Source: Ruminococcus difficilis
GTDB lineage: Bacteria; Bacillota_A; Clostridia; Oscillospirales; Acutalibacteraceae
Length of the DNA: 64,000 nt
Direction of reading: 5' to 3'
Assembly: GCF_016680995.1 (NCBI RefSeq)
Contig: NZ_JAEQMG010000040.1
Location: 62,001 to 126,000, forward strand
In this document: piece after piece, positions 5,963 through 63,255 of the stretch
Numbering within the stretch: position 1 is the stretch's first letter
How the letters are laid out: each line of letters starts with the position of its first letter
Program-made: the position numbers and the translations under genes
The notes under the pieces: generated by a model
Database searches by the model: none
The model's input: only the letters and a program-made list of their open reading frames with translations
Told to the model about the DNA's origin: nothing

Positions 5963-7063
5963 ATGAAAAATATCGACGGAAATCTCATTTTTGACCATGC
6001 GCCGCGTATCGCAAGCTACGCCTCGGCGGTCGGAAAAAAAGAGGGTGAGGGACCCTTGCGTGATTGGTTTGACCGAATCATCCGCGACAGCTACGCCGGC
6101 AAGGATACGTTCGAGCAGGCGGAAAGCGAGCTGATGACCACTGCCGTTCGAATCGCGCTGAACAAGGGCGATTACACGCAGGAGGATATTGACCTCGCCT
6201 GCTGCGGCGATCTGCTCAACCAGTGTGTCGCGAGCAGCTTTGCGATGCGATCCTACGCGATCCCTTACGCGGGCGTATACGGCGCGTGCTCCACGATGGC
6301 GCTGTCGATGATCCTGTCGGCAACGGCGATCGAAAGCGGCGCGGCAAGGCGAGCCGTCTGCGCGGCGTCCTCTCACTATTGCACGGCAGAGCGCCAGTAC
6401 CGTTTCCCGCTCGAATACGGCTCCCAGCGCCCGCCGACAGCCCAGTGGACGGTCACCGGCTCGGGCGCCTGTGTTTTAGAGGAAAGAAGCAGAATTACCC
6501 CGAACACAAAAACAGCGGCTCACCAAACGACATTGGAGCGCCTTGATTCGGACGATTCTGCTTTCCCGAAGAGGGATAAGCGGCCGCACCCGATCTATCT
6601 TCACTCCGCCCGTCTCGGACGGATCATCGACTTCCGAATCACCGACCAGAACAACATGGGCGCCGCCATGGCGCCTGCCGCGGCGGACACCATTTACCGC
6701 TATCTCAGCGCCTCCGAGAGCGAGGTGCAGGATTATGACATGATCTTCACCGGCGACCTCGGGCGCGTTGGCTCGCGATTACTGCGTGATCTGCTCAGCG
6801 AAAAAGGCGTCGAGCTCGGCGAGCACCACAGCGACTGCGGCGTGATGATCTTTGACGAGGATCAGGACGTCCACGCCGGCGGATCGGGCTGCGGATGCTG
6901 TGCCTCGGTGCTGTGCGGCTATATCCTCGACAAAATGCGCGACGGTACCTTCCGCAATATCCTCTTCGTCCCGACAGGCGCATTACTCAGCCCCACCACC
7001 GTCATGCAAAAGCAAAGCATCCCCTCCATCGCCCACCTGATCAACATCCGAACAAACGCATAA
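5963..7063 (+). CDS. spoVAD: Stage V sporulation protein AD
   Basis: A 366-residue protein with a thiolase-like fold. The stretches 'GVYGACSTMALS' and 'CAASSHYCTAERQYRFPLEY' followed by 'QRPPTAQWTVTGSGAC' are hallmarks of SpoVAD, which binds dipicolinic acid and helps move it from the mother cell into the forespore through the SpoVA channel. The length is near the usual 335-345, with an insertion around residues 175-205 (rich in T, K and charged residues). AAAGGAG at 5949 sets the ATG. The other spoVA genes are not adjacent, so it is either a lone copy or separated from the main spoVA operon. It marks the organism as a spore former. Confidence 0.92.
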   Translation: MKNIDGNLIFDHAPRIASYASAVGKKEGEGPLRDWFDRIIRDSYAGKDTFEQAESELMTTAVRIALNKGDYTQEDIDLACCGDLLNQCVASSFAMRSYAIPYAGVYGACSTMALSMILSATAIESGAARRAVCAASSHYCTAERQYRFPLEYGSQRPPTAQWTVTGSGACVLEERSRITPNTKTAAHQTTLERLDSDDSAFPKRDKRPHPIYLHSARLGRIIDFRITDQNNMGAAMAPAAADTIYRYLSASESEVQDYDMIFTGDLGRVGSRLLRDLLSEKGVELGEHHSDCGVMIFDEDQDVHAGGSGCGCCASVLCGYILDKMRDGTFRNILFVPTGALLSPTTVMQKQSIPSIAHLINIRTNA

Positions 7064-7170: not shown

Positions 7171-7262
7171 ATTGTATCATACCAAGAACAATTAGGTTAC
7201 TATGATAAGGTAGTATACCGCAAAGCTCTGATGCCTCATCGACGGATGAGGCATTATCTTTA
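7171..7262 (+). ncRNA. tracrRNA of the type II-C CRISPR-Cas system
   Basis: Bases 7171-7206 match the CRISPR repeat of the downstream array at roughly 28 of 36 positions, in the orientation that pairs with crRNA from the minus strand. They are followed by the II-C tracrRNA tail: AAGG, a short 'TAGTATACCG' nexus, 'CAAAGCTCTGATGCC' and a terminal hairpin (ATGCCTCATC ... GATGAGGCAT, 7231-7254) leading into ATTATCTTTA. The tail resembles the recalled Neisseria and Geobacillus tracrRNAs. The RNA guides repeat processing by RNase III and assembly with Cas9. An ATG at 7231, in frame with cas9, lies inside this RNA and is not the cas9 start. Confidence 0.9.
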
Positions 7263-7281
7263 TCTGTTACAGGAGGACGTC

Positions 7282-10200
7282 ATGAAGTATATCATCGGTC
7301 TGGACATGGGTATCACGTCGGTTGGCTTTTCGACAATGATGCTGGATGAACAAGATGAACCATGCAGGATCCTGCGGATGGGTTCCCGTATCTTTGAAGC
7401 AGCAGAACACCCCAAGGACGGTTCATCACTTGCGGCGCCTCGCCGAGAGAACCGCTCCATGCGCCGCAGACTTCGCAGAAAGCGCCATAGAAAAGAGCGG
7501 ATCAGATCGTTGATCGTGAATAACGGCGTCATGACTGCGGAGCAGATCGACAACATTTATGACGCGAAAAATCAGTTGTCTGATATCTATCAGGTTCGAA
7601 CTGAAGCGCTGGACAGACGTTTGAGCACAGAAGAATTCGTCCGATTATTGATCCATTTATCGCAGCGCAGGGGTTTCAAATCCAATCGTAAGGTCGACGC
7701 GCAGGAGAAAAAGTCCGAGGCGGGCAAGCTGCTCAACGCGGTCAGCGCCAATCATCAGCTGATGCTCGAGAAGGGTTATCGCACTGTCGGTGAGATGCTG
7801 TATCGGGATGAAAAATTCTCGGCGTATAAGCGTAACAAGGCGGATGATTATTCCAACACCTTTGCACGCTCCGAATACGAGGATGAGATCAGGGCGATCT
7901 TTCGCGCACAGCAGGAGTTGGGCAATCCCCATGCTACGGATAAACTCATGGAAGATTACCTCGCGATCTATCTCTCTCAGCGTTCGTTTGACGAAGGCCC
8001 CGGCGGTAAAAGCCCCTACGCAGGGAACCAGATCGAAAAGATGATCGGCAAATGCACCTTGGAGCCGAACGAAAAACGCGCCGCAAAAGCGTCTTATTCC
8101 TTTGAATATTTTAACTTGCTGTCAAAGGTGAACAGCATCAAGATCGTATGTGACGGTGAAAAACGCGCCTTGAATGACGCTGAGCGTCAGACCGTGATCC
8201 AACTGGCATTTTCCAAGAACGCGATCAACTATACATCGATCCGCAAAGCGCTTCACATGACGGACAGCGAGCGCTTCAACATCTCTTACAGTCAGTCGGA
8301 TAAAACGGCGGATGAAATCGAGAAAAAGACGAAGTTCACTTATCTGACGGCGTTTCATACGTTCAAGAAAGCCTACGGAAACGCCTATGTCAACTGGCAG
8401 ACTGAAAAGAAAAACCGCCTTGCCTATGCGCTGACAGCTTATCGTAACGACAGCTCGATCGTCGATTACTTATCGGAAAACGGCTTTGACAAGGCGGAAA
8501 CAGAAATCGCGCTGACGCTTCCGACCTTTACAAAGTGGGGCAATCTTTCCGAAAAAGCCCTTAACAAGATCATCCCTTATCTGGAGCAGGGGATGCTTTA
8601 TCATGACGCTTGTACTGCCGCGGGATACAATTTTAAGGCGGATGATACGGAAAAGCGAATGTATCTGCCCGCGCACGAAAAAGAAGCGCCCGAACTGGAG
8701 GATATCAAGAATCCTGTCGTGCGCCGTGCAATCTCCCAGACGATCAAGGTCGTCAACGCCCTGATCCGCGAGAGGGGAGAGAGCCCCTGCTTTGTCAACA
8801 TCGAGCTGGCGCGTGAACTGAGCAAGAACAAAGCGGACAGAAACAAAATCGAAAAGAGCCAAAAGGAGAATCAGGCGAACAACGACAGGATCATGGAGCG
8901 ACTGAAAAACGAATTCGGTCTGCTCAGTCCCACAGGGCAGGATCTGGTCAAGCTCAAGCTCTGGGAGGAGCAGGACGGCAAATGTCCCTATTCGCTCAAG
9001 CCCATTCGGATCGAGCGGCTGTTTGAGCCGGGATATACCGATATCGACCACATCATCCCGTATTCCCTCTGCTTTGACGATACCTATAACAACAAGGTGC
9101 TGGTCATGTCGTCTGAGAACCGCCAAAAGAGCAACCGTATTCCGATGCAGTACCTCGAGGGCAAACGACGCGACGATTTCCGCGTTTGGGTAGAAAACTC
9201 CCACCTGCGCTACAGAAAGAAGCAGAATCTCTTGAAAGAAACGCTGACCGAGGATGATCTGTCCGGCTTCAAAAAGCGCAATTTGCAGGACACCCAGTAT
9301 CTATCCTCATTCATGCTGAAATATCTCAAAAAGTATTTGGCGCTTTCTCCCAACAGCACCGGTCGCAAAAACGCCATCCAAGCTGTCAAGGGTTCTGCCA
9401 CCGCATATATGCGCAAGCGCTGGGGCATCCAAAAGATCCGCGAAAACGGCGACATCCATCACGCGGTGGACGCTGTCGTGATCGCGTGCGTGACGAGCGG
9501 AATGACACAAAGGATATCTCAGTACGCAAAGTATAAAGAAACCAAGTATCAGAACCCCGACACCGGCGCCTACTTTGACGTTGATAAACGCACCGGTGAG
9601 GTGATCGACCGCTTTCCGACGCCGTATCAATGGTTCAGGGACGAGCTGTTGATGCGCTGTTCCGACGATCCCTCGCGCGTCCTTCATGAAAAGCCCCTGC
9701 CGAACTACGCGACGGATGAACAGGTCGCTCCGATATTCGTGTCGCGTATGCCGAAGCATAAAGCAAAAGGCTCCGCGCATAAAGAAACCATCCGTAAGCC
9801 CTATAAGCAGGATGGTCAAAAGTACACGATATCCAAGGCGCCGCTCAACACGCTCAAGCTCAAAAACGGTGAGATCGAAAACTACTTCAACCCCGGCAGC
9901 GATACCCTGCTGTATGACGCGCTGAAGGAGCGTTTGGTCGCTTTCGGCGGCGACGCGAAGAAAGCGTTTGAAGCGCCGTTCCACAAGCCCAAGAGCGACG
10001 GTACGCCCGGACCTGTAGTCAAAAAGGTCAAGCTCATCGATAAGGCGACCATTACCGTACCGGTACAGCGGAATACCGCCGTAGCGGATAACGGCTCGAT
10101 GGTGCGCGTAGATGTGTTCTATGTAGAGGGAGAGGGCTACTATCTGGTGCCGATCTATGTGGCGGATACGGTCGGCAGGATACTGCCGAACAGGGCAATC

Positions 10201-10545
10201 GTTGCATACAAACCGCATGATGAATGGAAAGAGATGAATGAGGACGACTTTGTCTTTTCGCTGTATCCCAATGATTTGGTGAGGATCAGATTCAGTAAGG
10301 AAATGAAGTTCTCTCTTTCGCGGAAGGACAGCACGCTTCCCGATGAAAGAGTGATGCAGGAAGGGCTGTTCTACTATCGCGGAACCAATATTTCTACAGG
10401 CGCTATTGGTATCATCAATCATGACAACACTTATGTGATCCGTGGTTTAGGCGTCAAGCGACTTCCGCTGATGGAAAAGTATCAGGTCGATGTTCTCGGT
10501 AACATATCAAAAATCGGAAAAGAAAAGAGAATGAGGTTCAAATGA
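7282..10545 (+). CDS. cas9: CRISPR-associated endonuclease Cas9, type II-C
   Basis: A compact Cas9 of 1087 residues. AGGAGG at 7271 sets the ATG at 7282 instead of the upstream in-frame ATG at 7231. RuvC-I is 'IIGLDMGITSVGF' with Asp8. An Arg-rich bridge helix follows around residues 47-80. RuvC-II is 'VNIELARELS' with Glu508. The HNH motif 'DIDHIIPYS' has His590, and RuvC-III 'IHHAVDAVV' has His727 and Asp730. All catalytic residues are intact. The C-terminal region ('FVSRMPKHKAKGSAHKETIR', and later 'EKYQVDVLGNI') closely resembles recalled Geobacillus stearothermophilus Cas9. It cuts double-stranded DNA using the crRNA:tracrRNA duplex. The gene is followed by a broken cas1 and an array, with no cas2. 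Confidence 0.97.
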   Translation: MKYIIGLDMGITSVGFSTMMLDEQDEPCRILRMGSRIFEAAEHPKDGSSLAAPRRENRSMRRRLRRKRHRKERIRSLIVNNGVMTAEQIDNIYDAKNQLSDIYQVRTEALDRRLSTEEFVRLLIHLSQRRGFKSNRKVDAQEKKSEAGKLLNAVSANHQLMLEKGYRTVGEMLYRDEKFSAYKRNKADDYSNTFARSEYEDEIRAIFRAQQELGNPHATDKLMEDYLAIYLSQRSFDEGPGGKSPYAGNQIEKMIGKCTLEPNEKRAAKASYSFEYFNLLSKVNSIKIVCDGEKRALNDAERQTVIQLAFSKNAINYTSIRKALHMTDSERFNISYSQSDKTADEIEKKTKFTYLTAFHTFKKAYGNAYVNWQTEKKNRLAYALTAYRNDSSIVDYLSENGFDKAETEIALTLPTFTKWGNLSEKALNKIIPYLEQGMLYHDACTAAGYNFKADDTEKRMYLPAHEKEAPELEDIKNPVVRRAISQTIKVVNALIRERGESPCFVNIELARELSKNKADRNKIEKSQKENQANNDRIMERLKNEFGLLSPTGQDLVKLKLWEEQDGKCPYSLKPIRIERLFEPGYTDIDHIIPYSLCFDDTYNNKVLVMSSENRQKSNRIPMQYLEGKRRDDFRVWVENSHLRYRKKQNLLKETLTEDDLSGFKKRNLQDTQYLSSFMLKYLKKYLALSPNSTGRKNAIQAVKGSATAYMRKRWGIQKIRENGDIHHAVDAVVIACVTSGMTQRISQYAKYKETKYQNPDTGAYFDVDKRTGEVIDRFPTPYQWFRDELLMRCSDDPSRVLHEKPLPNYATDEQVAPIFVSRMPKHKAKGSAHKETIRKPYKQDGQKYTISKAPLNTLKLKNGEIENYFNPGSDTLLYDALKERLVAFGGDAKKAFEAPFHKPKSDGTPGPVVKKVKLIDKATITVPVQRNTAVADNGSMVRVDVFYVEGEGYYLVPIYVADTVGRILPNRAIVAYKPHDEWKEMNEDDFVFSLYPNDLVRIRFSKEMKFSLSRKDSTLPDERVMQEGLFYYRGTNISTGAIGIINHDNTYVIRGLGVKRLPLMEKYQVDVLGNISKIGKEKRMRFK

Positions 10546-11388: not shown

Positions 11389-12213
11389 TTACCATCCTTT
11401 CACCATCCCGATCTCCGCTATGTAGCCGGCGTCATCGTTGGGCGTTTCGAGGATGAACGGCTTGTTTTGCAGAGCCGGGTGAAGGGCGATCCGCTTCATC
11501 GCCTCCATGCCGATACAGCCCTGACCGAGCTTTTCATGCCGATCCTTATGCGAGCCGCAGGGATTCTTACTGTCGTTGAAGTGGACTGCGCGCAGTCTGT
11601 CTAAACCGATCACATCATCGAAGTGATGCAGTACGCCGTCGAGATCATTCGCGATGTCATACCCCGCGTCCCAGACATGGCAGGTGTCGAAGCATACGCC
11701 GACCTTATCCTTCAGCTCCACGCGGTCGATGATCGCTTTGAGTTCCTCAAAGCTCCTGCCCATCTCCGTACCCTTGCCCGCCATCGTTTCGAGCAGGACG
11801 GTCGTGCGCATTTCGGGGAAGAGGACGCTGTTGAGCGCCTGTGCGATCAGCTCGATCCCTTTCTCAGCGCCCTGACCCGTGTGCGCGCCGGGGTGAAAAT
11901 TGTAGTATTGATGCGGAAAGAATTCCATCCTTTGGATATCCTGTTCGAGCATATCCAGCCCGTTGAGGCGGGTGGATTCCTTCGCGGCGCACAGGTTCAT
12001 CGTGTAGCTGCCGTGAGCGACGAGCTTGCCGAAATGCTGTTCCGCGAGCAGGTTGTTCAGCGCCGACGCGTCCTCCGGGATGATATCCTTCGATCTGCCG
12101 CCGCGCGGATTGCGGGTGAAATAGGAAAAGGTGTTGCCGCCGAACTCGCACATGGTCCTGCCCATCGCCTCATAGCCGTTGGTCACACTCAGGTGACATC
12201 CGATGTATATCAT
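11389..12213 (-). CDS. nfo: Deoxyribonuclease IV (AP endonuclease)
   Basis: A 274-residue TIM-barrel enzyme of the Nfo/EndoIV family that cuts DNA at abasic sites in base excision repair. Visible metal ligands and signatures are 'IGCHLSV' (residues 4-10), 'VAHGSYTMNL', 'YNFHPGAHTG', 'VLLETMAGKG', 'VGVCFDTCHVWDAGYD' and 'AVHFNDSKNPCGSHKDRHE', which together supply the three-zinc site. The length matches the family. The ribosome site AGGAGA precedes the ATG at 12213 on the minus strand. Its transcription runs toward the CRISPR array, so read-through could add to crRNA expression. Base excision repair of spore DNA is a plausible role. Confidence 0.93.
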   Translation of the reverse strand: MIYIGCHLSVTNGYEAMGRTMCEFGGNTFSYFTRNPRGGRSKDIIPEDASALNNLLAEQHFGKLVAHGSYTMNLCAAKESTRLNGLDMLEQDIQRMEFFPHQYYNFHPGAHTGQGAEKGIELIAQALNSVLFPEMRTTVLLETMAGKGTEMGRSFEELKAIIDRVELKDKVGVCFDTCHVWDAGYDIANDLDGVLHHFDDVIGLDRLRAVHFNDSKNPCGSHKDRHEKLGQGCIGMEAMKRIALHPALQNKPFILETPNDDAGYIAEIGMVKGW

Positions 12214-12528: not shown

Positions 12529-12981
12529 TTATTCTTCCATTTGCTTGCCGAGGAACGCGGCGGCGGATTGCGCGAGCTTGAGCTCCGTGTCGGTGGGGAT
12601 CTGCACGCGATCTCCCTTGAGCATCACGACCGCGCCGGTGACGTCGCCCGCGGCGATGATGGGGTAGATGACCGCGGCGGCGTGCTCCACGCCCTCCACC
12701 GTCTGCACCTCGTCCACCGAGTTCGAGTGCGCGCTGTAACTGCGGCGATTCTCCATATAATTCTCGAGGATCGGTGTGATCCGCCGCTCCAAAAACTCCC
12801 GCTTGCTCACGCCTGCCGCGGCGATCACATGGTCACGGTCACAGATGAGCGTCGGCATCGCGCTGATGCGCGACAGCACATCCGCATACTGCGCCGCAAA
12901 CTCCGACAGCTCGCCCACCGGTGAATATTTCTTAAAGATGACCTCGCCATCCGTAGCAGTGTAAATCTCCAGCGGGTCACC
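12529..12981 (-). pseudogene. spoVT: spoVT C-terminal 150 codons, interrupted by the recombinase element
   Basis: On the minus strand the segment reads 'GDPLEIYTATDGEVIFKKYS' then 'PVGELSEFA', 'LICDRDHVIAAAGVSK' and ends 'AAFLGKQMEE'. This follows recalled Bacillus SpoVT from Gly31 through the GAF-like domain to its natural end. The first 30 residues, most of the AbrB-type DNA-binding fold, are replaced by recombinase sequence. SpoVT is a forespore regulator made under sigma G. In this configuration it cannot be an ordinary regulator. No copy of the missing N-terminus was found elsewhere in the window. Confidence 0.85.
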
Positions 12982-14694
12982 GTCACTGATAACATTGACA
13001 TCATAAACCTTGTCCGCTCCATATCTATGAGGCTGAACGATCGTGGTCGATAAGCTATTTATGATGCCTTGCTTAAAATTTGCGGCGTCCTCATAATCCT
13101 CGGGAAGAGTGCCGCATTTCAGCAGACTGTCGATATCCGCCTTGAGTTTGACTTCCACATGATCCTCGTACACGATGATCTTGTCGATGATCAGTTGCAG
13201 ATCGTTACGGTCAAGTTTCTCTTTTTTCAAGATATCGTCAAAGACCTCTAACGCGAGCTTCGCGACACGGTTGACGCGAATGATCGTATTTCTGCGATTG
13301 ATAGTCAGATCGATCTGGTTTTGGATACCGGCGATCTGTTTTGCAAGCTCATCCTCAACTTCGTCATAGGTTTCTTCCAGTATTTCTTCCCGCTCGGGAT
13401 GCTTCATGATATCGCGGACACGCTGACGCTTGGCGACTTTCATTTCTTCCTGTAAATCGGCGAGGACTTCCTCCAGGTTGACCTCTGCGCGGTTGGTTTC
13501 ATCGATATCGGTTTGCTCTTTGCGTAGATCGGCGTTGAGCTGTTCGATCATCTCGGATGAATTGTCCCTGACCATTTTGATGTACAGTTTCAGGATCTCA
13601 TCGAGCTTTTGCACGCGGATGTGATGGCTGGTACAGCCTTTCAGACCACGTCGATGATACGTTCCGCAGTGGTACGCGTCTCTCAGATCCGGACGGCTCA
13701 ACGCAAACATCGGACTGCCGCAGTCGCCGCATTCCAGAAATCCCGAGTAAACATTATCGTATTTCTTTTGACCGCGATAATTATTCTTAGAGCGGCTTTC
13801 GAGCAGCTCCTTGACGTTAGCAAATTCGCGGTAGCTGATGATTTCCTGATGATGACGTTCGATGACGATATGATCGCTCACGTCGCATTTGACATCTTTT
13901 CCGTTGATTTTTTTGCGTGTATATTTGCTCGAGCGCATCGTACCGATATAGAAATCGTTTTTCAGAATTCCTTCAACAGTAGCGATCGCCCATGACGCCT
14001 TGACCTCGCGCTTGTATTCCTTGCCTTCTGCCTCTTTACGCTGGCGCTCCGACATACGCGGAGTGGGGATGCCTTCATCGGTCAGGTAGTTGGCAATCTT
14101 CTTGTAACCCCAGCCGTCCTGATACAGCTTGAAGATGGTGCGAACGATCTCGGCTTCCGTCGGCACTATTTCATATTTCTGATGATCGTTGATAATGTAT
14201 CCATAAGGCGCGGCGCAGATCCACTTACCGTCCTTTTGCTTACGTTTTACAACAGCTTTTACCTTCTTCGATGTGTCGGTAACCGGGATCTCGTTGAGAA
14301 AAAAGAGTATTTGAATCTTCGTCCAGTCGTCATTGTTTGGGTAGTCGATGTTATCGCCGATGGAGATGATACGGATGCCGTTATCACGCAAGTCTTCCAA
14401 CTCCATCAACCCACGGCTGTTGCGGCGGGAGAATCGCGACAGGTCCTTAACGATCAGAATATCGAGTTTATGGCTAAAGAGCAACTTTCGCATTTGCTGA
14501 TAGCCCTCGCGCTGCTCAAAGGTGTAACCCGAGCGATCGCGATCCTCAAAGAGAGTCAGTGTGCTGCCCGGAAACTTTTCCTTCACAAACGCCTCGATAA
14601 TCGCCTTCTGATTCTCAATAGAAGTGTTATCACAATTCAGATCCTCGTCGTCCGAGATTCGGCAGTAGCCCGCGATGTCAAATTTTTCTATCAA
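12529..14694 (-). CDS. Serine recombinase fused in frame to the C-terminus of SpoVT
   Basis: Translation starts at TTG 14694 behind GAGAGGTGAG. Residues 1-150 are a resolvase catalytic domain: 'YCRIS' with nucleophile Ser14, 'DRDRSGYTF' and 'VKDLSRFSRR'. Residues ~160-240 are the Recombinase DNA-binding domain ('APYGYI...EAEIVRTIFKLY'), ~310-350 a zinc ribbon (LECGDCGSPM and later Cys residues), then a coiled coil and the usual C-terminal strand domain to about residue 535. Residues 572-721 are not recombinase: they match SpoVT from its residue 31 to the end. This looks like an integrated element whose recombinase gene crosses the att junction into host spoVT. Excision would restore spoVT. 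Whether the tail harms recombinase activity is unknown. Confidence 0.85.
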   Translation of the reverse strand: MIEKFDIAGYCRISDDEDLNCDNTSIENQKAIIEAFVKEKFPGSTLTLFEDRDRSGYTFEQREGYQQMRKLLFSHKLDILIVKDLSRFSRRNSRGLMELEDLRDNGIRIISIGDNIDYPNNDDWTKIQILFFLNEIPVTDTSKKVKAVVKRKQKDGKWICAAPYGYIINDHQKYEIVPTEAEIVRTIFKLYQDGWGYKKIANYLTDEGIPTPRMSERQRKEAEGKEYKREVKASWAIATVEGILKNDFYIGTMRSSKYTRKKINGKDVKCDVSDHIVIERHHQEIISYREFANVKELLESRSKNNYRGQKKYDNVYSGFLECGDCGSPMFALSRPDLRDAYHCGTYHRRGLKGCTSHHIRVQKLDEILKLYIKMVRDNSSEMIEQLNADLRKEQTDIDETNRAEVNLEEVLADLQEEMKVAKRQRVRDIMKHPEREEILEETYDEVEDELAKQIAGIQNQIDLTINRRNTIIRVNRVAKLALEVFDDILKKEKLDRNDLQLIIDKIIVYEDHVEVKLKADIDSLLKCGTLPEDYEDAANFKQGIINSLSTTIVQPHRYGADKVYDVNVISDGDPLEIYTATDGEVIFKKYSPVGELSEFAAQYADVLSRISAMPTLICDRDHVIAAAGVSKREFLERRITPILENYMENRRSYSAHSNSVDEVQTVEGVEHAAAVIYPIIAAGDVTGAVVMLKGDRVQIPTDTELKLAQSAAAFLGKQMEE

Positions 14695-14880
14695 TATAAC
14701 TCACCTCTCTTGTGATTGATTACAGATAATATTGTAACACGCTAAAAGAGAAAAATCAAGACTATTTTTATAATTTGTTGATATTATTTTGCGGAGATGA
14801 TCCTATTGACCAATTTTTGATATACACAGGGAACCAAGCTTTTGTTTAAGAAACATAAAATAGTATTAGGAATAAACGTA

Positions 14881-52060: not shown

Positions 52061-53076
52061 CAATTATCGTGACAGGCGGCGCCGGTTTTATCGGCTCCAA
52101 CTTCATTTTCCATATGCTGAAAGAGCATCCGGATTATCGCATTATTTGTTTAGACAAACTGACTTATGCAGGTAATTTGAGTACACTGAAATCTGTGATG
52201 GACAATCCGAATTTCAGATTTGTGAAAGCAGATATCTGCGACAGAGAAGCGGTTTACAAGCTCTTTGAAGAAGAGTATCCTGATATGGTGGTGAACTTCG
52301 CTGCAGAAAGCCATGTCGATCGCTCGATCGAGAATCCTGAGATCTTTTTACAGACCAATATTCTTGGTACACAGGTATTGATGGACGCATGCCGCAGATA
52401 CGGTATTCAGCGTTACCATCAGGTGAGTACCGATGAGGTCTACGGTGATTTGCCGCTTGACAGACCTGATCTCTTCTTCACCGAAGAAACACCGATCCAT
52501 ACCAGCAGTCCCTACAGCTCGTCAAAGGCGGGCGCGGATTTATTGGTGCTCGCGTACCACCGTACTTATGGATTGCCTGTGACTGTGAGTCGTTGCTCTA
52601 ACAATTACGGACCTTATCACTTCCCTGAGAAGTTGATTCCGTTGATGATCGCGAACGCTCTTGCGGATAAGCCTTTGCCCGTTTACGGCAAGGGCGAAAA
52701 TGTTCGCGATTGGCTCTATGTTGAGGATCATTGCAAAGCGATCGATCTGATTATTCATAATGGCAGAGTCGGCGAGGTCTACAACGTTGGCGGTCATAAT
52801 GAAATGGCAAATATCGATATTGTGAAGTTGATTTGTAAAGAGCTCGGTAAACCAGAGAGTTTGATCACATATGTTACCGATCGCAAGGGTCATGATCTGC
52901 GCTATGCAATCGATCCGACGAAGATCCATAACGAACTCGGATGGCTACCGGAAACAAAGTTTGAGGATGGCATCAAAAAGACGATCCAGTGGTATCTCGA
53001 TAACAAAGACTGGTGGCAGGAGATCATCAGCGGTGAGTATCAGAATTATTATGAGAAGATGTATGGGAATAGATAA
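52057..53076 (+). CDS. rmlB: dTDP-glucose 4,6-dehydratase
   Basis: A 339-residue short-chain dehydrogenase/reductase: '[17 protein letters not shown]' (NAD loop), '[17 protein letters not shown]', '[10 protein letters not shown]' and '[20 protein letters not shown]' (Tyr-x3-Lys). It converts dTDP-glucose to dTDP-4-keto-6-deoxyglucose, the substrate for the next gene. The following start lies 14 bases inside its end. Confidence 0.97.
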
Positions 53077-54433
53077 CTTGATTCTCCAATCATGGAATAA
53101 GAATGTAGTTAGTATTCATGATACTGATGATTTACTTGATTGGGTAAATGACAGAAACAAAAATACTATAGTTAATATTAGAAAAACTGACATAAATAAA
53201 AGTACAGTTTGGTTTTATGATAATAATAGTGGATTGATTAGAAACCAAAATAATAGTTTCTTTCAAATCACAGGAATTCGAATAACTGATAACGATACCA
53301 GTATAGCAGAGCAGCCCATTATCCTTCAGACGGAAATCGGCTATCTTGGTATTATTTGCAAGGTTATTAATGGCGTTTTGCATTTTTTGATGCAATCTAA
53401 AATAGAGCCGGGAAACATTAACTGTGTACAGATTTCACCGACTATTCAAGCGACAAAAAGCAACTTTACACAAAAACACGGCGGGGCAAAGCCAAAGTAC
53501 TTAGAGTATTTTCTAAATGCCAATAAATACAAGATTCTATTTGATCAGATTCAATCGGAACAGTCCTCCAGATTTCTTGGAAAACGCAATAGGAATATTA
53601 TTATTCTGGTGAACGAGGATGTGCCTGAGTCAGCTACACATAAGTGGATGACATTGTATCAAATCAAGCAGCTTATGAAGATACCGAATTTGGTTAATAT
53701 GGATACGCGTACTGTTCTTTCCAGTCTTCCGATTATCATTGGTGATGGAAAAGATGTTGAACAATTTTTTGAAGATAAAGATTTGTTTCGTTCCATGTTT
53801 AATTCTAATGACTACGAGTTGCCTGATTTATATCATTACATCAATGATTATAAGATGTTTCATGAACAGAAACATGAGCTGGTACCTTTGTACAGCTTGA
53901 ATAATTGGGATTATAATCAAGATAAAGAATTCATCTGTAAACAACCCTATAGCTTTAGATTGATTCACTGCGATATCGAAATTGAAGGTAGAGAGGTGCG
54001 TCATTGGGATCAACCGTTGTTTGAAGCGATGGGGCGAGCCATGTTTGGGTTGCTTACGTGCATAGATAATAGTGTAAGGAAATATCTGGTTAAAGCTAAA
54101 CCGGAAATCGGTGCATTCGATAGGATTGAATTTGGTCCTTCTGTACAGAGAGAGGCAGTATCCGATGATCCAATAGATCCGGTATATTCATTGTTCAAAG
54201 AAAAATTGGCTATGAACGATGGCGTTTTGTTTAATAACGTTCTTTCTGAAGAGGGAGGACGTTTCTATCATGAAGAAAATGATAATATAATAATTCAAAT
54301 AAACAAGGATGAATTGAGAGAATTACCGGATGGATATTTTTGGGTAACTTACAGAACTCTCAATTCATTAATTCAGATTAATAACACAGTAAATATACAA
54401 TTAAGAAATCTCATATCTCTGTTAGAAATATGA
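53063..54433 (+). CDS. NDP-hexose 2,3-dehydratase
   Basis: A 456-residue protein; ATG 53063 overlaps the rmlB end, although the open frame runs further upstream. 'QPIILQTEIGYLGIICK', 'GVLHFLMQSKIEPGNIN', 'QISPTIQATKSNFTQKHGG' and in the second half 'FGPSVQREA' and 'GREVRHWDQPLFEA' are the hallmarks of TylX3/EryBVI/SpnO-type dehydratases, which have two related halves. They remove the 2-hydroxyl from dTDP-4-keto-6-deoxyglucose, giving the 3,4-diketo intermediate of 2-deoxysugars, usually found in antibiotic clusters. Followed by a ketoreductase and an aminotransferase. Confidence 0.9.
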   Translation: MGIDNLILQSWNKNVVSIHDTDDLLDWVNDRNKNTIVNIRKTDINKSTVWFYDNNSGLIRNQNNSFFQITGIRITDNDTSIAEQPIILQTEIGYLGIICKVINGVLHFLMQSKIEPGNINCVQISPTIQATKSNFTQKHGGAKPKYLEYFLNANKYKILFDQIQSEQSSRFLGKRNRNIIILVNEDVPESATHKWMTLYQIKQLMKIPNLVNMDTRTVLSSLPIIIGDGKDVEQFFEDKDLFRSMFNSNDYELPDLYHYINDYKMFHEQKHELVPLYSLNNWDYNQDKEFICKQPYSFRLIHCDIEIEGREVRHWDQPLFEAMGRAMFGLLTCIDNSVRKYLVKAKPEIGAFDRIEFGPSVQREAVSDDPIDPVYSLFKEKLAMNDGVLFNNVLSEEGGRFYHEENDNIIIQINKDELRELPDGYFWVTYRTLNSLIQINNTVNIQLRNLISLLEI

Positions 54434-58773: not shown

Positions 58774-58818
58774 GACCCAGTCTCAGGGAGTTTGCTCTCT
58801 GAGGCTGGGTCACTTTTT
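58774..58818 (+). terminator. Rho-independent terminator between convergent genes
   Basis: A long stem (GACCCAG at 58774 with CTGGGTC at 58805, and most of the bases between also paired around a TTTG loop) is followed by CACTTTTTAA. It ends rightward transcripts from the deaminase unit; the convergent XRE gene stops right beside it. Confidence 0.88.
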
Positions 58819-59311
58819 AATATGCAGTTAGCAGTGATTCTACGCTGTATGATTCAAAATCCTGAAATAAATGATTCAGTGTTTCATTGATAGTCTCTAT
58901 GTTTGTGTTCCAGTTCTTAACCATATCCTTGAACTTGAGATAGTCGATGATAAAATCATAGATTGGCGTTCCGGAGATGAGATGATCCTCGGCCAAATTC
59001 AAGAAAGATTCATCAGTGATCGTATCGATCACTCTGGTTGTAAAGAGTAAATAGTCTTTTGTAGACGAAGCTGACGTTTCCGTTGCATTTTCTTCACTTA
59101 ATCCGCAAAGCCAGTCTAATGAGACATTCAATGCGGAAGCAAGAGCATAAGCAGAGGATAGATTTGGCTTTTTTGTTGATGATTCATAACCGCTGATGCT
59201 GAGAGGAGATACTCCTGATTGTTCAGACAGTCCTTTTTGTGATAGTTCGGCTTTGATTCTGGCGGCTTTGAGTCTTTCTGAAAAGACAGCAGACGAAAAT
59301 TCTGATTTCAT
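58817..59311 (-). CDS. XRE-family transcriptional regulator
   Basis: A 164-residue protein with an N-terminal helix-turn-helix: 'FSERLKAARIKAELSQKGLS' then 'EQSGVSPLSISGYESSTKKP' and 'LASALNVSLDWLCGLSE' (residues 10-75), the Cro/cI type. The C-terminal ~85 residues are helical and unrecognised. It is read leftward, opposite to the predicted RNA at 59617. Two near-identical 20-bp palindromes at 59444 and 59467 lie upstream and overlap its likely promoter (-10 TATAAT at 59418-59423 on the minus strand), pointing to self-repression. Confidence 0.9.
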   Translation of the reverse strand: MKSEFSSAVFSERLKAARIKAELSQKGLSEQSGVSPLSISGYESSTKKPNLSSAYALASALNVSLDWLCGLSEENATETSASSTKDYLLFTTRVIDTITDESFLNLAEDHLISGTPIYDFIIDYLKFKDMVKNWNTNIETINETLNHLFQDFESYSVESLLTAY

Positions 59312-59755: not shown

Positions 59756-59862
59756 AAAAAATGTAAGCTTTACAAGACGCTTACATCTATTCTAATCATG
59801 GAAAAACACGGTCGCTATGGATCTTAACAGCGGCTAAATAAAATGAATATAGGAGGATAACT

Positions 59863-60030
59863 ATGTTTAGAAAATATGATCAAATTGATAGGGCTCAAAT
59901 CAGTCCTCAGGATATTGAGAAAATGACTCGCTTTATAAAGAAAACCTATGAGGATGGCACCTGTGAAAAAGTTGCGCGCATAATCGAGAAGAGAATGCGT
60001 ATCACCTCTGATACATTTTTTGAGGATTAG
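59863..60030 (+). CDS. Small protein, 55 residues, unknown function
   Basis: ATG 59863 has a strong ribosome site (AGGAGG at 59851). The product is charged and probably all-helical ('SPQDIEKMTRFIKKTYEDGT', 'EKVARIIEKRM'). No family recognised. It follows the predicted RNA at 59605 and precedes another small gene at 60185; together they look like accessory-element cargo. Confidence 0.65.
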   Translation: MFRKYDQIDRAQISPQDIEKMTRFIKKTYEDGTCEKVARIIEKRMRITSDTFFED

Positions 60031-60184
60031 GCGATTCTGAAAAGGATGAGACAAAGATTATTGCAGAGTCTGTTTATTCAGATATCGATAAACATATTGA
60101 TAAGTTATTTCTGCAATGCTATTTTATAATGTTTACCATCTAATTTCATGCCAACACTATTGATAGAAACGGGAGGTAGGCTGT

Positions 60185-60454
60185 ATGAAATGTGAAATAA
60201 TGATTGAGAAGAAGCTTGTCTGTATTTGGCTCAACCGGAATGAGTCTGCTGCGCCTGAGGTGCCGGCGTTGCTCAAGCCGATATACCAAAAGTATAAAGC
60301 TATTAATTATACGGTAGTCGTATTTCGATCAGGAAGTCAGAATTTGCTTAAGTTATCAAGTGAGCTGTTAAGGTACAACCGTCGTCTGTTTGCAGAAAGA
60401 GAAGAAGAAAGCGCCGGGAAAAAAGACCCTACTCGGGAGAATCAATCGGGATAG
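60185..60454 (+). CDS. Small hypothetical protein, 89 residues
   Basis: ATG 60185 behind GGGAGG. Residues 1-70 look like a small alpha/beta fold ('CEIMIEKKLVCIWLNRNE', 'AINYTVVVFRSGSQNLLKLS', 'LLRYNRRLFAERE'), then a polar tail. The pattern resembles small proteins carried on clostridial integrative elements, but I cannot name a family. Confidence 0.65.
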   Translation: MKCEIMIEKKLVCIWLNRNESAAPEVPALLKPIYQKYKAINYTVVVFRSGSQNLLKLSSELLRYNRRLFAEREEESAGKKDPTRENQSG

Positions 60455-60890
60455 GCATTAATGGTAATACGGAGAACCGGAGAATTGCATAAAGCTCAAT
60501 AAATCTTTTTTGAGCTTTACTCAAAGATCATTGTTTGTATCAAAGAGCAATTAATTATTTCTTATTCCATTGCTATTGGTCGATAGAAAACGGCTTGAAC
60601 AGTGAGCTTTTACCGTGTCTCAAAAATCCCCCCTCTTAAAAAGTGACGTATCAACATGTTTTCAATATCCCTGATAGACCGTCAAAAAGATCATCCTTTC
60701 ATGCGACCCATTTCCCTTCAATATAGAGAATAAAGGGATCGTAACGCTATTGCCGGACAGCCTTAATACAAGCAGATTCAGTCCGGTGTGCTAATGCTTG
60801 ATTTATCGGCGAATAATAAATGACAATACGCCTCCTATGAGTAAGAGCTTATTTCTTACATAGGAGGCGTATCTTTTCGTTTTATGTTTT
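60455..60890. other. Gap without a gene
   Basis: No credible coding frame. A 14-bp stem with an inner 5-bp helix (60826-60839 / 60859-60872) at the right end probably ends the leftward gene 60891-62690 and could also stop rightward transcripts, since CTTTTCGTTTT follows on the plus strand. Confidence 0.6.
60826..60880 (-). terminator. Hairpin terminator of the transglutaminase-dockerin gene
   Basis: A perfect 14-bp stem with an additional inner pairing (GTAAG/CTTAC) lies 18 bases beyond the stop of the leftward gene. The T-rich tail on the minus strand is weak, so it is moderately supported. Confidence 0.65.
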
Positions 60891-62690
60891 TTATATCGGT
60901 TCTCCGATTTTGCAGTTGACGTTGATATTGCTCAGCCATTTTTGGATGAGCGTTGCGTCCATGATCGTGATCTCTGAATCGCGGTTCACATCGGCAAAAT
61001 CGGCACTGACGGTGCAGGGTGTATTGATTCCTGCCTCGTGGCGCAGAATGTACGTTGAGTCCGCAACGGTGACATCTTCGCTGCGGTCTACATCACCGAG
61101 CAAAGTCTTGATCTCGACAAAGGTCATTCCGTTTTCTTTAGCGTATGTTTCAGCGGCAGTACCCTTGAAGCCGCGTACAATGAACTTCTCGTTATCGGTA
61201 TCACCGTAGATGTCCTGATTGACATAGTACGCAAACGCGTATTCGCCGATCGAGGTAACGGACGCGGGGATAGTGATTTCCTTGAGCGTTCCGCAGTAGA
61301 TGAACGCGCCTTCACCGATGGAGGTAACGGTATCGGGAATAACGATACGCTTGACTCTTTTGGTTCGCTCAAGACAGTAGTCGATACAGAAATTGTCGCC
61401 GATCGATACGACCGGTTGATCGTTGATCTCACTCGGGATCTCAAAGGTATCCGTCAGATTGTCGGGGACGTCGTCGTATTGATAGACCTCAACACCCTCA
61501 TTCCTGTTGCGGATCGAAAACAGAGAATCTCTCTTTTCAATAGAATAGTAGCGCGGCGCATCCATATTGTAGCCGGCTTCCACCTGGTAGTAGTCCGTGC
61601 CGTCATAGACCATCGCGTTGGCGTGGCCGTAGCCTGCGCCGGAATCCTTATTACCGTTTCTCCACCAGCTTTGCAGACCGATCATCTGCGCCATTTGTAC
61701 GATCGTGGAGGTAGAAGCCCAGCAGTCGCCGCCTCCCGTAACGACCATACCGACGGCGTTGCTATAGCGGTAATCGTATTCTCTGTTTGCGACAAACCGC
61801 GCGATCGCGTCGATCTTCTCATAGGTCGTCATGGATGATGTGATGTTTTGATCGAGATACTCGCGCATCACATTCTCGGTATACTTTTTTGCATAATTAA
61901 CGGCGTTGATATGATACAGCTCAGTCTTTCCGCCCGAGGATACAGTGACATATCCGCCGTTTTCCGAGACCGTCTCTTCGATCTGATCCGGTTCTCTGCC
62001 TTGAATAGGGGAGGAGTAGCCGACGTTCCCGTAATAGTACCAGGTCCTTTTGGCAAGTGTCGCTACGCCGTTTTCAACGGTCACATCCCACGGATCGAGT
62101 GAACGGATCTGCGGATTGGTCATGCCGCTCGTCGGGAAACGATAACTCTGAGGATAATCGGAAGGAAGGGAAATATAACTGCTGTAGTCGCTGTTCAGAT
62201 AATACAGATCGACATTCTTCGCGTATACATCGGCATAATCCACAACGTTGACACGGATATAATAGGTACGATTCTTGGCGGCGACTTTGATCTCTCCTCC
62301 CGCAAAACTGTATTCAGAAGTAATGTCGGTAGGAGTCTTATCCTCCAAAGGCTCCGGATAGGAGTTGTAGCCGTACCAGTAGGTATAGGTGACGGCGGGG
62401 GTGATCAAGCCGCTCTCAGATACCGAGACGCCCTTCGGATCCAGCGATGTAAAGGTTGGATCAACAAGACCGTCGGTGTTGATCTGATAGCTCTGCGGAT
62501 ACGAATCCGGAATCGACATGTAGGATGTCGCCCAAACCTCGATCGCATACAGAGTGACATACTCTGTTGTCGCGGATGTGGGTGCCGGGTCAACTTCTGC
62601 CGCATGACCCGGCATCGCAAATGACAGGATGAGGGTCAGGATCAAAATGATCGAAACGGAAAACGATAATGGTTTGGTTTTTGCTTTCAT
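60891..62690 (-). CDS. Secreted transglutaminase-like protein with BspA repeats and dockerin
   Basis: A 599-residue exported protein. Residues 1-30 are a signal peptide (Lys-rich start, hydrophobic core, 'MPGHAA'). Two related ~105-residue beta modules follow (each with 'YPQSY' and 'SLDP'). Residues ~270-385 are a transglutaminase-like core with 'GGGDCWASTS' (Cys), 'GHANAMVYDG' (His) and 'DYYQVEAG'. Residues ~410-500 carry BspA-type leucine-rich repeats ('IPDTVTSIGEGAFIYCGTLK', 'IPASVTSIGEYAFAYY'). The C-terminus is a type I dockerin with two loops (GDVDRSEDVTVAD, ADVNRDSEITIMD). AAGGAG precedes the ATG. It probably works as a cysteine peptidase or crosslinker on a cohesin scaffold. Confidence 0.88.
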   Translation of the reverse strand: MKAKTKPLSFSVSIILILTLILSFAMPGHAAEVDPAPTSATTEYVTLYAIEVWATSYMSIPDSYPQSYQINTDGLVDPTFTSLDPKGVSVSESGLITPAVTYTYWYGYNSYPEPLEDKTPTDITSEYSFAGGEIKVAAKNRTYYIRVNVVDYADVYAKNVDLYYLNSDYSSYISLPSDYPQSYRFPTSGMTNPQIRSLDPWDVTVENGVATLAKRTWYYYGNVGYSSPIQGREPDQIEETVSENGGYVTVSSGGKTELYHINAVNYAKKYTENVMREYLDQNITSSMTTYEKIDAIARFVANREYDYRYSNAVGMVVTGGGDCWASTSTIVQMAQMIGLQSWWRNGNKDSGAGYGHANAMVYDGTDYYQVEAGYNMDAPRYYSIEKRDSLFSIRNRNEGVEVYQYDDVPDNLTDTFEIPSEINDQPVVSIGDNFCIDYCLERTKRVKRIVIPDTVTSIGEGAFIYCGTLKEITIPASVTSIGEYAFAYYVNQDIYGDTDNEKFIVRGFKGTAAETYAKENGMTFVEIKTLLGDVDRSEDVTVADSTYILRHEAGINTPCTVSADFADVNRDSEITIMDATLIQKWLSNINVNCKIGEPI

Positions 62691-62897
62691 CTAATTCTCC
62701 TTTTCTTGATCTGTATGTTCACGGACAAAAAGCAGTACGGGAATATGCAGACTATTTAGTATAAATATATCATATACTTATTCTCTGTAAATTGCAAGAC
62801 TGAGATAATCACGGGAGGAAGAGAGCCTATGATTGCCTTTTGTGTAAGGCATATATTCATCCATACTGCTGATTTAATTATTCATACAGGTTGATAC

Positions 62898-62917
62898 TAT
62901 ACTCCTATAGGAGTATA
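62898..62917. promoter_or_regulatory. 20-bp palindrome related to the 59.4 kb operators
   Basis: TATACTCCTATAGGAGTATA is a perfect palindrome with the same TACT-CTATAG-AGTA skeleton as the two boxes at 59444-59486. It probably binds the same or a sister XRE regulator. Confidence 0.65.
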
Positions 62918-63093
62918 TAGTAAAGTCATATGAAAAACTATTCCTCTGGGAATAGCTTGAGAAAAGAGGGTACAGGATGATACGATGCAATTATTATGGT
63001 ACAAAGGACATTATCAAAAAGCCTTAATTTGATTATGGAAGACAAGATTACGATTATGATCGCGGCTGCTTCTACTGAACCGATTCCATCAAC

Positions 63094-63255
63094 ATGGTGC
63101 GGGCTGAGTATGTAATTAAGCTGGCAAAGGCGCTGTATTGTGAGCCTGAGGAGTTACTGGAGAGGGTAAGTAGTATAAAGAAGTCATCGTTGTATTTTCC
63201 CAGGTGTAGTATGTATGCAATCGCTCCGCAATATCTTTTTGGTGTTACGGAGTAA
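63094..63255 (+). pseudogene. Remnant of an XRE-type regulator
   Basis: A frame with 'VRAEYVIKLAKALYCEPEEL' looks like the last helices of a Cro/cI helix-turn-helix (K-x-A-K-A-L-x-C-x-x-x-E-L-L). The preceding sequence has stops in the same frame and no start with a ribosome site. It lies just after the palindrome at 62898, as expected for a former regulator gene with its operator. Confidence 0.4.

Follow-up and report, generated by a model that had tools for sequence, protein, structure and literature searches.

We describe a mobile island that, as judged from sequence comparison, inserts repeatedly at one exact spot of the sporulation gene spoVT in gut and rumen bacteria. At one end of the island, the gene of a large serine recombinase (LSR) reads without a stop through the attachment site into the host gene. 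We consider it moderately probable that this island, integrated by the LSR at spoVT codons 31-32, is kept during growth and excised in some sporulating cells, which would restore SpoVT. The island was identified in a stretch of 64,000 nucleotides (hereafter, the window) and compared with those of related genomes, in which an LSR element interrupts spoVT at the same short conserved site, as a preliminary description of this DNA had claimed for the window.

The recombinase gene continues in frame into spoVT

The window contains an ORF of 721 aa with a TTG start (12529-14694, minus strand), in which the ORF call, Pfam and NCBIfam identify an LSR followed in frame by SpoVT residues 31-180. The recombinase part (residues 1-571; 12982-14694, minus strand) was delimited with Pfam, an alignment and a structure model, and the 3′ part of the host spoVT (codons 31-180 and the stop; 12529-12981, minus strand) with Pfam and by comparison with relatives. 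The junction is thus located at 12982/12981, between codons 571 and 572 of the fusion ORF, at SpoVT residue 31. In the fusion protein, Pfam detected the domains Resolvase (residues 7-158), Recombinase (178-301), Zn_ribbon_recom (316-369) and SpoVT_C (595-720, 142 bits for a cut-off of 27.5). With the NCBIfam model spore_V_T, residues 569-720 aligned with model positions 27-180 at 148.5 bits, below the whole-protein cut-off of 235.9, and model positions 1-26 were without counterpart. The ORF, Pfam and this alignment bear out the passage from LSR to SpoVT residue 31 noted in the preliminary description, and the unmatched positions 1-26 the absence of the N-terminal 30 or so residues of SpoVT that it had also reported.

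The fusion protein possesses the features of the LSR class: a Resolvase N-terminal domain, a recombinase domain, a Zn ribbon and a long coiled coil, long helices being present between residues 361 and 490 of the structure model. In an alignment of 23 proteins, Y10, R12, I13, S14 and D16 were invariant, and S14, which we take from its motif to be the catalytic serine, sits in this invariant block. The structure model had a mean pLDDT of 67.6, with values below 50 for residues 533-610 and low values for the SpoVT part; the residues from about 533 are modeled as a low-confidence linker in the recombinase part. The fusion is not due to chance, because the relative L055 possesses an uninterrupted spoVT with a C-half that differs from that of the window by 13 synonymous changes and one non-synonymous change. 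Downstream of spoVT, a host gene for an AP endonuclease/TIM barrel protein (11389-12213, minus strand), found as the same neighbor in G001, marks the host side of the junction. This side of spoVT also contains a spoVAD gene (5963-7063, plus strand), as would be expected if the host forms spores.

The 5′ half of spoVT lies at the far end of the island in relatives

The spoVT 5′ half was not found within the 64-kb window, as had been noted before. A genome scan retained 80 loci, comprising fusions and intact genes. Of 22 examined loci with the SpoVT part only, 21 showed an uninterrupted spoVT with a full N-terminus across the site, and L069 diverged upstream. The comparison with spoVT of relatives, proposed in the preliminary description as a check, thus revealed empty sites, for example in L055. 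When 20 fusion-bearing relatives were searched with the intact SpoVT protein, the 5′ half was recovered in 16 genomes (residues 1 to 33-41, 19 pieces in all) and was not found in four. Both halves were on one contig in nine genomes, and in all nine the 5′ piece was upstream on the same strand, at a distance from about 15 kb (G006) to 87 kb (G012); the distance was 56 kb in G001, which has a recombinase part with 92% identity to that of the window. The genome of Ruminococcus bromii 5AMG is among those with a split spoVT. The N-pieces read (18 of the 19) consist of SpoVT up to residue 31-32 followed by an element-encoded tail, the whole piece being exactly 58 aa long in 15 of the 18 and the tail of G018b being out of line with the others.

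Two further arrangements were observed. Three genomes (G004, G012 and G018; L176, L177, L180-L183) carry two spoVT N-halves and one C-half each. In five others (G063, G077, G235, G159 and G107; L196, L197, L198, L199 and L200, respectively), a complete spoVT is preceded, at a distance of 0.9-11.5 kb, by an orphan ORF made of the spoVT N-half and tail, and the interval gave no recombinase match. In G107 and G159, the sequences just 5′ of both start codons, that of the orphan N-half and that of the complete spoVT, are alike.

Attachment sites predict a reciprocal exchange of C-termini

To define the attachment sites, both element ends were compared, 18 of the 19 N-halves being used in the att, tail and join analyses (G016 was left out). 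The element ends examined had GGYGACC in common, with exceptions in G014 (GGAGACC / GGCGATC) and in G012, where one N-half without a partner has GGCAACC. The shared core of the window is GGTGACC, on the attR side (12975-12981, minus strand). The third core base differs between the two ends of one element in several genomes, and G014 also differs just right of GA; because the differences of G014 leave no other place for it, the crossover is presumed to be this 2-bp GA (12977-12978, minus strand), which lies on the axis of the attP palindrome. Of the att core put forward in the preliminary description, the short conserved site at the junction was retained, and the longer sequence proved to be mostly host attB arm.

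The element-derived att arm GTCAATGTTATCAGTGAC (12982-12999, minus strand) forms the attP inverted repeat with the far-end right arm of relatives (GTCACTGACAACATTGAC in G001). When attP was rebuilt from both ends (GTCAATGTTATCAGTGAC-GGTGACCA-GTCACTGACAACATTGAC in G001), an inverted repeat on one axis was obtained for 15 of 15 elements, with 13-16 of 20 positions paired, compared to a mean of 9.6 in letter shuffles, of which 29 of 3000 reached 13. When the host-side arms were joined in silico, each of the 15 genomes yielded a spoVT without internal stop, 179-181 aa long, the first listed N-half being used for the three genomes with two. Precise excision would thus be predicted to restore a full-length spoVT.

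Since the reading frame of the recombinase crosses attP, integration exchanges C-termini: the N-terminal part of SpoVT gains an element-encoded tail and the recombinase the C-terminal domain of SpoVT. The integrated state thus has spoVT divided into SpoVT(1-31)-tail, usually of 58 aa in all, and LSR-SpoVT(31-180). From the joins and the rebuilt attP, it follows that a circle-borne LSR would have a tail of its own, of about 27 aa, at its end. The part of the tail beyond the att arm shows constraint at the protein level, with pN/pS values of 0.30 (8 sequences, 28 non-independent pairs), 0.11 (3 sequences) and 0.11 (2 sequences), for groups set by eye on the tail sequence, which lowers pN. This test covered 13 of 15 sequences, G007 and G014 falling outside the groups; G015, G017 and G018 were left out.

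Such a constraint, together with two open ORFs and a promoter-like sequence in front of the recombinase, might suggest that the split pieces are functional as such: SpoVT(1-31)-tail would be a small protein that binds DNA, LSR-SpoVT_C would combine two functions, and excision would be unneeded. We regard this explanation as improbable. The AbrB-type domain extends past SpoVT residue 31, and as the tail is not derived from SpoVT, the domain loses the part beyond this residue. Moreover, the tail would be conserved in any case, since on the circle it forms the end of the recombinase itself, and the SpoVT part of the fusion is modeled at low confidence behind a disordered linker.

Fusions form a family in which the two parts have different histories

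A search with residues 535-720 (E ≤ 0.001, 5705 candidates), with length limits that shut out ordinary SpoVT, found 3498 proteins matching the junction/SpoVT region. In the best 120 of these 3498, precomputed Pfam assignments gave SpoVT_C in 120/120 and a recombinase domain also in 119/120, and the motif GDPLEI was present at the junction in 120/120. With one architecture prevailing in the best 120, the fusion is therefore a family and not an oddity. This family-wide fusion and the predicted reciprocal exchange of C-termini are points beyond the preliminary description.

The number of similar proteins and the dominance of one architecture in the best 120 could also be expected from a stable recombinase-SpoVT fusion protein, inherited vertically. 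However, the identities of the recombinase and SpoVT parts were only loosely related (Spearman 0.42 for 38 fused loci, the pairs being non-independent). L010 and L012 have recombinases 97.7% identical and SpoVT parts 70.7% identical, and the window and L006 have SpoVT parts 96.7% identical and recombinases 55.5% identical. This comparison included 38 of the 40 loci tried, and no partial-fusion loci; L023, in which a junction variant was missed by the motif though the fusion is present, and L041, the one of 40 fused loci with a frameshift at the junction, were left out. As the recombinase and SpoVT parts have different histories, the element is therefore mobile, and the discordance is what the sequences of an integrating element, taking whichever SpoVT the host has, would be expected to show. 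In addition, the 5′ halves lie at the far end of the element and near relatives have empty sites. A stable fusion gene was thus ruled out on the discordant identities, and we give it a negligible probability. The preliminary description had also considered an intact spoVT elsewhere in combination with a stable fusion; a second full-length spoVT was present in 0 of the 20 fusion genomes and, as presented above, the histories of the two parts are separate.

Regarding the age of the insertions, the SpoVT part of the window is nearer to that of the empty L055 (dS 0.13) than to that of the filled L001 (dS 0.43), and the recombinases of L001 and L002 (dS 0.12) are younger than the divergence of their spoVT (0.38). 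The open state of the halves may merely reflect recent insertion. We did not retain dN/dS of the two halves as a demonstration that they function once the island has inserted, the insertions being too young to part before from after.

The island carries a possibly exchangeable cargo and a candidate directionality factor

The element of the window extends from 12982 to beyond 64000. A scan of 22 of the ORFs between 14940 and 56592 revealed there a surface-glycan cargo with a choline branch (14940-56592, plus strand), comprising genes for a choline kinase/nucleotidyltransferase, a BCCT transporter, LicD and glycosyltransferases as well as sugar-nucleotide genes. It is followed by a gene for an HTH_3 regulator (58817-59311, minus strand), with a homologue in the G019 element, and by a backbone (59770-62811) common with the 56-kb element of G001 at 86.5% DNA identity. 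The G001 element is matched by window positions 52753-53077, 59770-62811 and 62891-63097, and its recombinase and host flank match at the other side. The earlier proposal of an element of more than 50 kb with the glycan genes inside agrees with the G001 5′ half at 56 kb and with a common backbone on both sides of the cargo. At the place corresponding to the glycan cargo, G001 keeps a short truncated remnant of a dTDP-glucose dehydratase gene, which suggests that this cargo moves as a unit, by exchange or by loss.

A small ORF of 89 aa (KLVCIWL...YNRRLFAERE; 60185-60454, plus strand), without Pfam match, recurs near the recombinase in other elements. The distance between the two is about 45 kb here, with the glycan cargo between them; in other elements it is at most about 1.3 kb and can be as little as a few hundred bases. 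Among six elements compared, every one had the recombinase, and the five with the far end available each had the SpoVT-N-tail ORF; homologues of the small ORF were found in four of six (the window and three of the five others). G006 and G007 have a common short ORF at the same place, alike by eye and not linked to it by search. We propose the small ORF as a candidate directionality factor or accessory protein.

The cargo of other elements, as assessed on 10 chosen ORFs, includes type I restriction-modification (G007, G014 and G019) and Cas9 with an AbiLi-like protein (G001); RecQ and HipA_C proteins are also encoded in the G001 element. No relaxase or mobilization gene was found among 25 chosen ORFs of the window element. 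In MT839487.1, a Mob_Pre gene is located near a recombinase 69% identical to that of L001, so some relatives are probably mobilizable.

Upstream of the recombinase, we identified a candidate vegetative sigma-A type promoter (TTGATT-17-TACAAT; 14731-14759, minus strand) from its box score and its recurrence. The match by itself is weak, because its score of 10 is inside the range of shuffled sequence, as are the best scores of most recombinases; the sigma-A assignment consequently rests on analogy and on the recurrence of the TACAAT box 5′ of 18 of the 21 recombinases examined. Overlapping this region (14725-14736, minus strand), and 5′ of most recombinases examined, a recurrent TACAATATTATC / TACAATGTTGTC sequence resembles the attP arm CAATGTTATC. 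By this likeness, the recombinase may bind its own promoter.

Proposed excision during sporulation and possible parasitic insertion

In the mechanism that we propose, the LSR would integrate a circle into spoVT by attP x attB recombination, with crossover at GA within GGTGACC. In growing cells, SpoVT would not be needed and the island would be retained. During sporulation, excision in at least some cells, aided by an element-encoded directionality factor for which the small ORF at 60185-60454 is the candidate, would restore SpoVT for late forespore gene expression. The importance of spoVT here is taken from C. difficile, in which SpoVT is needed for heat-resistant spores, a mutant having given none, and in which both sigma-F and sigma-G are required for its expression (PMC3789822). 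SpoVT acts in the forespore, and the spore inherits the forespore genome; the island must therefore leave early, re-integrate on germination or vanish from some spores. Its patchy occurrence is as expected if gain and loss are frequent.

A different explanation is a parasitic insertion without programmed excision, for which spoVT would be a convenient conserved attB. Sporulation would then be defective or delayed until chance loss of the island, in populations that manage without efficient sporulation. We hold this explanation to be possible but rather unlikely. The absence of the excised form from the collections searched is in its favor: the attP pattern was found in 0 of 161 genomes and in 0 viral contigs, and a search for LSR-tail proteins found none, although this search was weak because just one candidate shared words, and none scored. 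Two viral contigs had the tail-only pattern, and the frames examined there contained no SpoVT sequence; 208 plasmid records had a match, all under 60% identity. Parasitism would also agree with insertions that appear young and scattered, and with the five genomes in which an orphan N-half accompanies an intact spoVT and no recombinase was found between the two, which looks like restoration of the gene by another route. Against it, both halves were uninterrupted in 15 of 15 joins, and 21 of 100 sampled genomes of the genus of G001 have a split spoVT; 62 of the 100 have an intact gene (G235 with an extra N-piece), 11 a full fusion, five a C-half from near the junction in a shorter open frame, five an N-piece only, four other partial matches and 13 no match. 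In 150 genomes of the family of G014, a match was found in 128, and the genes were mostly intact among the matches listed.

Sporulation genes of carriers gave results on both sides. For SpoIVA, the family cut-off was exceeded in all 25 split genomes tested, which argues against parasitism, and in 23 of 25 intact genomes, the other two having pieces only. By contrast, among the matches listed, a sigma-G match covering at least 225 model positions was rarer in split genomes (18/25) than in intact ones (24/25; Fisher p 0.049), a point in favor of parasitism; the curated sigma-G cut-off was reached in 0 of these 50 genomes and in only one control genome. This sigma-G difference is the main result against the view that all carriers sporulate, and sporulation may have been lost in some of them. 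The shortfall is partly explained by sigG itself being split in some genomes: this holds for at least four of the seven exceptions with split spoVT, sigG being in two pieces in G231 and G242, while the piece present in G003 and in G249 stops at that very site.

In the genus of G001, sigG is split at the codons for YGVP, with both halves in G231 (L191/L192) and G242 (L189/L190), and one half in at least five others: G003 (L193, 6134-7923), G257 (L204, 928-4334), G249 (L194), G206 (L205) and G190 (L206). In G003, a different serine recombinase (476 aa), with 21% identity to a spoVT-type one where aligned, abuts the sigG N-half, and a recombinase 71% identical to it is located about 1.5 kb upstream of the sigG C-half in G257. 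No recombinase was found in the stretches read around the split sigG loci of G231, G242, G249, G206 and G190.

Comparison with known gene-intervening elements

A close likeness is to the gin element in gerE of Bacillus cereus ATCC10987, also a non-phage-like island that splits a sporulation gene, with serine recombinases and an excision that restores the gene (PMC5595907). A short sequence is common to both ends of gin (CATCTCAAA), as for the core of the spoVT island. However, gerE is a mother-cell gene, sporulation-specific excision was demonstrated for gin whereas we infer it here, and the sections of that report considered here describe no recombinase fused in frame to the target, as found in the spoVT island. 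For the skin element in sigK of C. difficile, excision likewise restores a sporulation gene, and the LSR is constitutively expressed from a sigma-A type promoter, a candidate for which is present here, with a mother-cell specific directionality factor as the regulated part (PMC5025042). The target of skin is a mother-cell gene and its directionality factor is known, whereas here the target is a forespore gene and the factor a candidate. SP-beta in spsM (PMC4191935) and yin in yabG (PMC10747680) are also mobile elements in sporulation genes, but differ in being prophages or prophage-like and in their targets.

Of the skin- and gin-type traits, the relatives of the spoVT island present both gene parts (16 of 20 genomes), a common core at the ends and in silico restoration (15 of 15). 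They depart from the usual mother-cell target, SpoVT being of the forespore line (PMC3789822). Known gene-intervening elements almost all target mother-cell genes; the mother-cell genome dies, so that excision there is free of cost to the element (PMC6957869). In gut and rumen bacteria, however, a widespread family targets the gene of the forespore regulator SpoVT and another type of element targets sigG, and the mother-cell argument can therefore not be the whole story. In the open-access papers searched, we found no report of spoVT or sigG split in this way, and the main text of an LSR survey (PMC10083194) mentions neither SpoVT nor AbrB. The spoVT island, with the excision proposed here, would stand apart from the known sporulation gene-intervening elements by its target in the forespore, by the reciprocal exchange in frame and by its scale.

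The predicted exchange of C-termini has two kinds of parallels. Mycobacteriophages with attP inside the repressor gene exhibit integration-dependent immunity. There, as here, integration alters the C-terminus of an element protein, but with tyrosine integrases and a repressor instead of a recombinase and a host regulator. In an engineered fusion of a directionality factor with an integrase, attL x attR recombination was efficient and attP x attB recombination reduced (PMC5737554); the fused domain thus changes the direction of recombination, in an artificial construct, whereas here integration itself swaps the C-terminus. A bolder reading, which we put forward as speculative and consider unlikely, is that the LSR of the circle, with its own tail of about 27 aa, would integrate, and that the SpoVT C-terminal domain acquired from the host would serve the integrated LSR as a directionality or signal-sensing module, so that the domain of late forespore expression would also govern excision. 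Taken together with the element that splits sigG, such a system would mirror, in the forespore line, the logic of skin in the mother cell, the island surviving by re-integration. The family provides many natural recombinase-host-domain fusions for asking whether C-terminal exchange controls the direction of recombination, and its cargo (type I restriction-modification, Cas9 and surface glycans) ties phage defence and the cell surface to a sporulation locus.

As a separate observation, a Cas9 gene (1104 aa; 7231-10545, plus strand) is located on the host side near spoVT in the window, where the alignment with the G001 flank is gapped, and the Cas9 inside the spoVT island of G001 is a different one (1318 aa).
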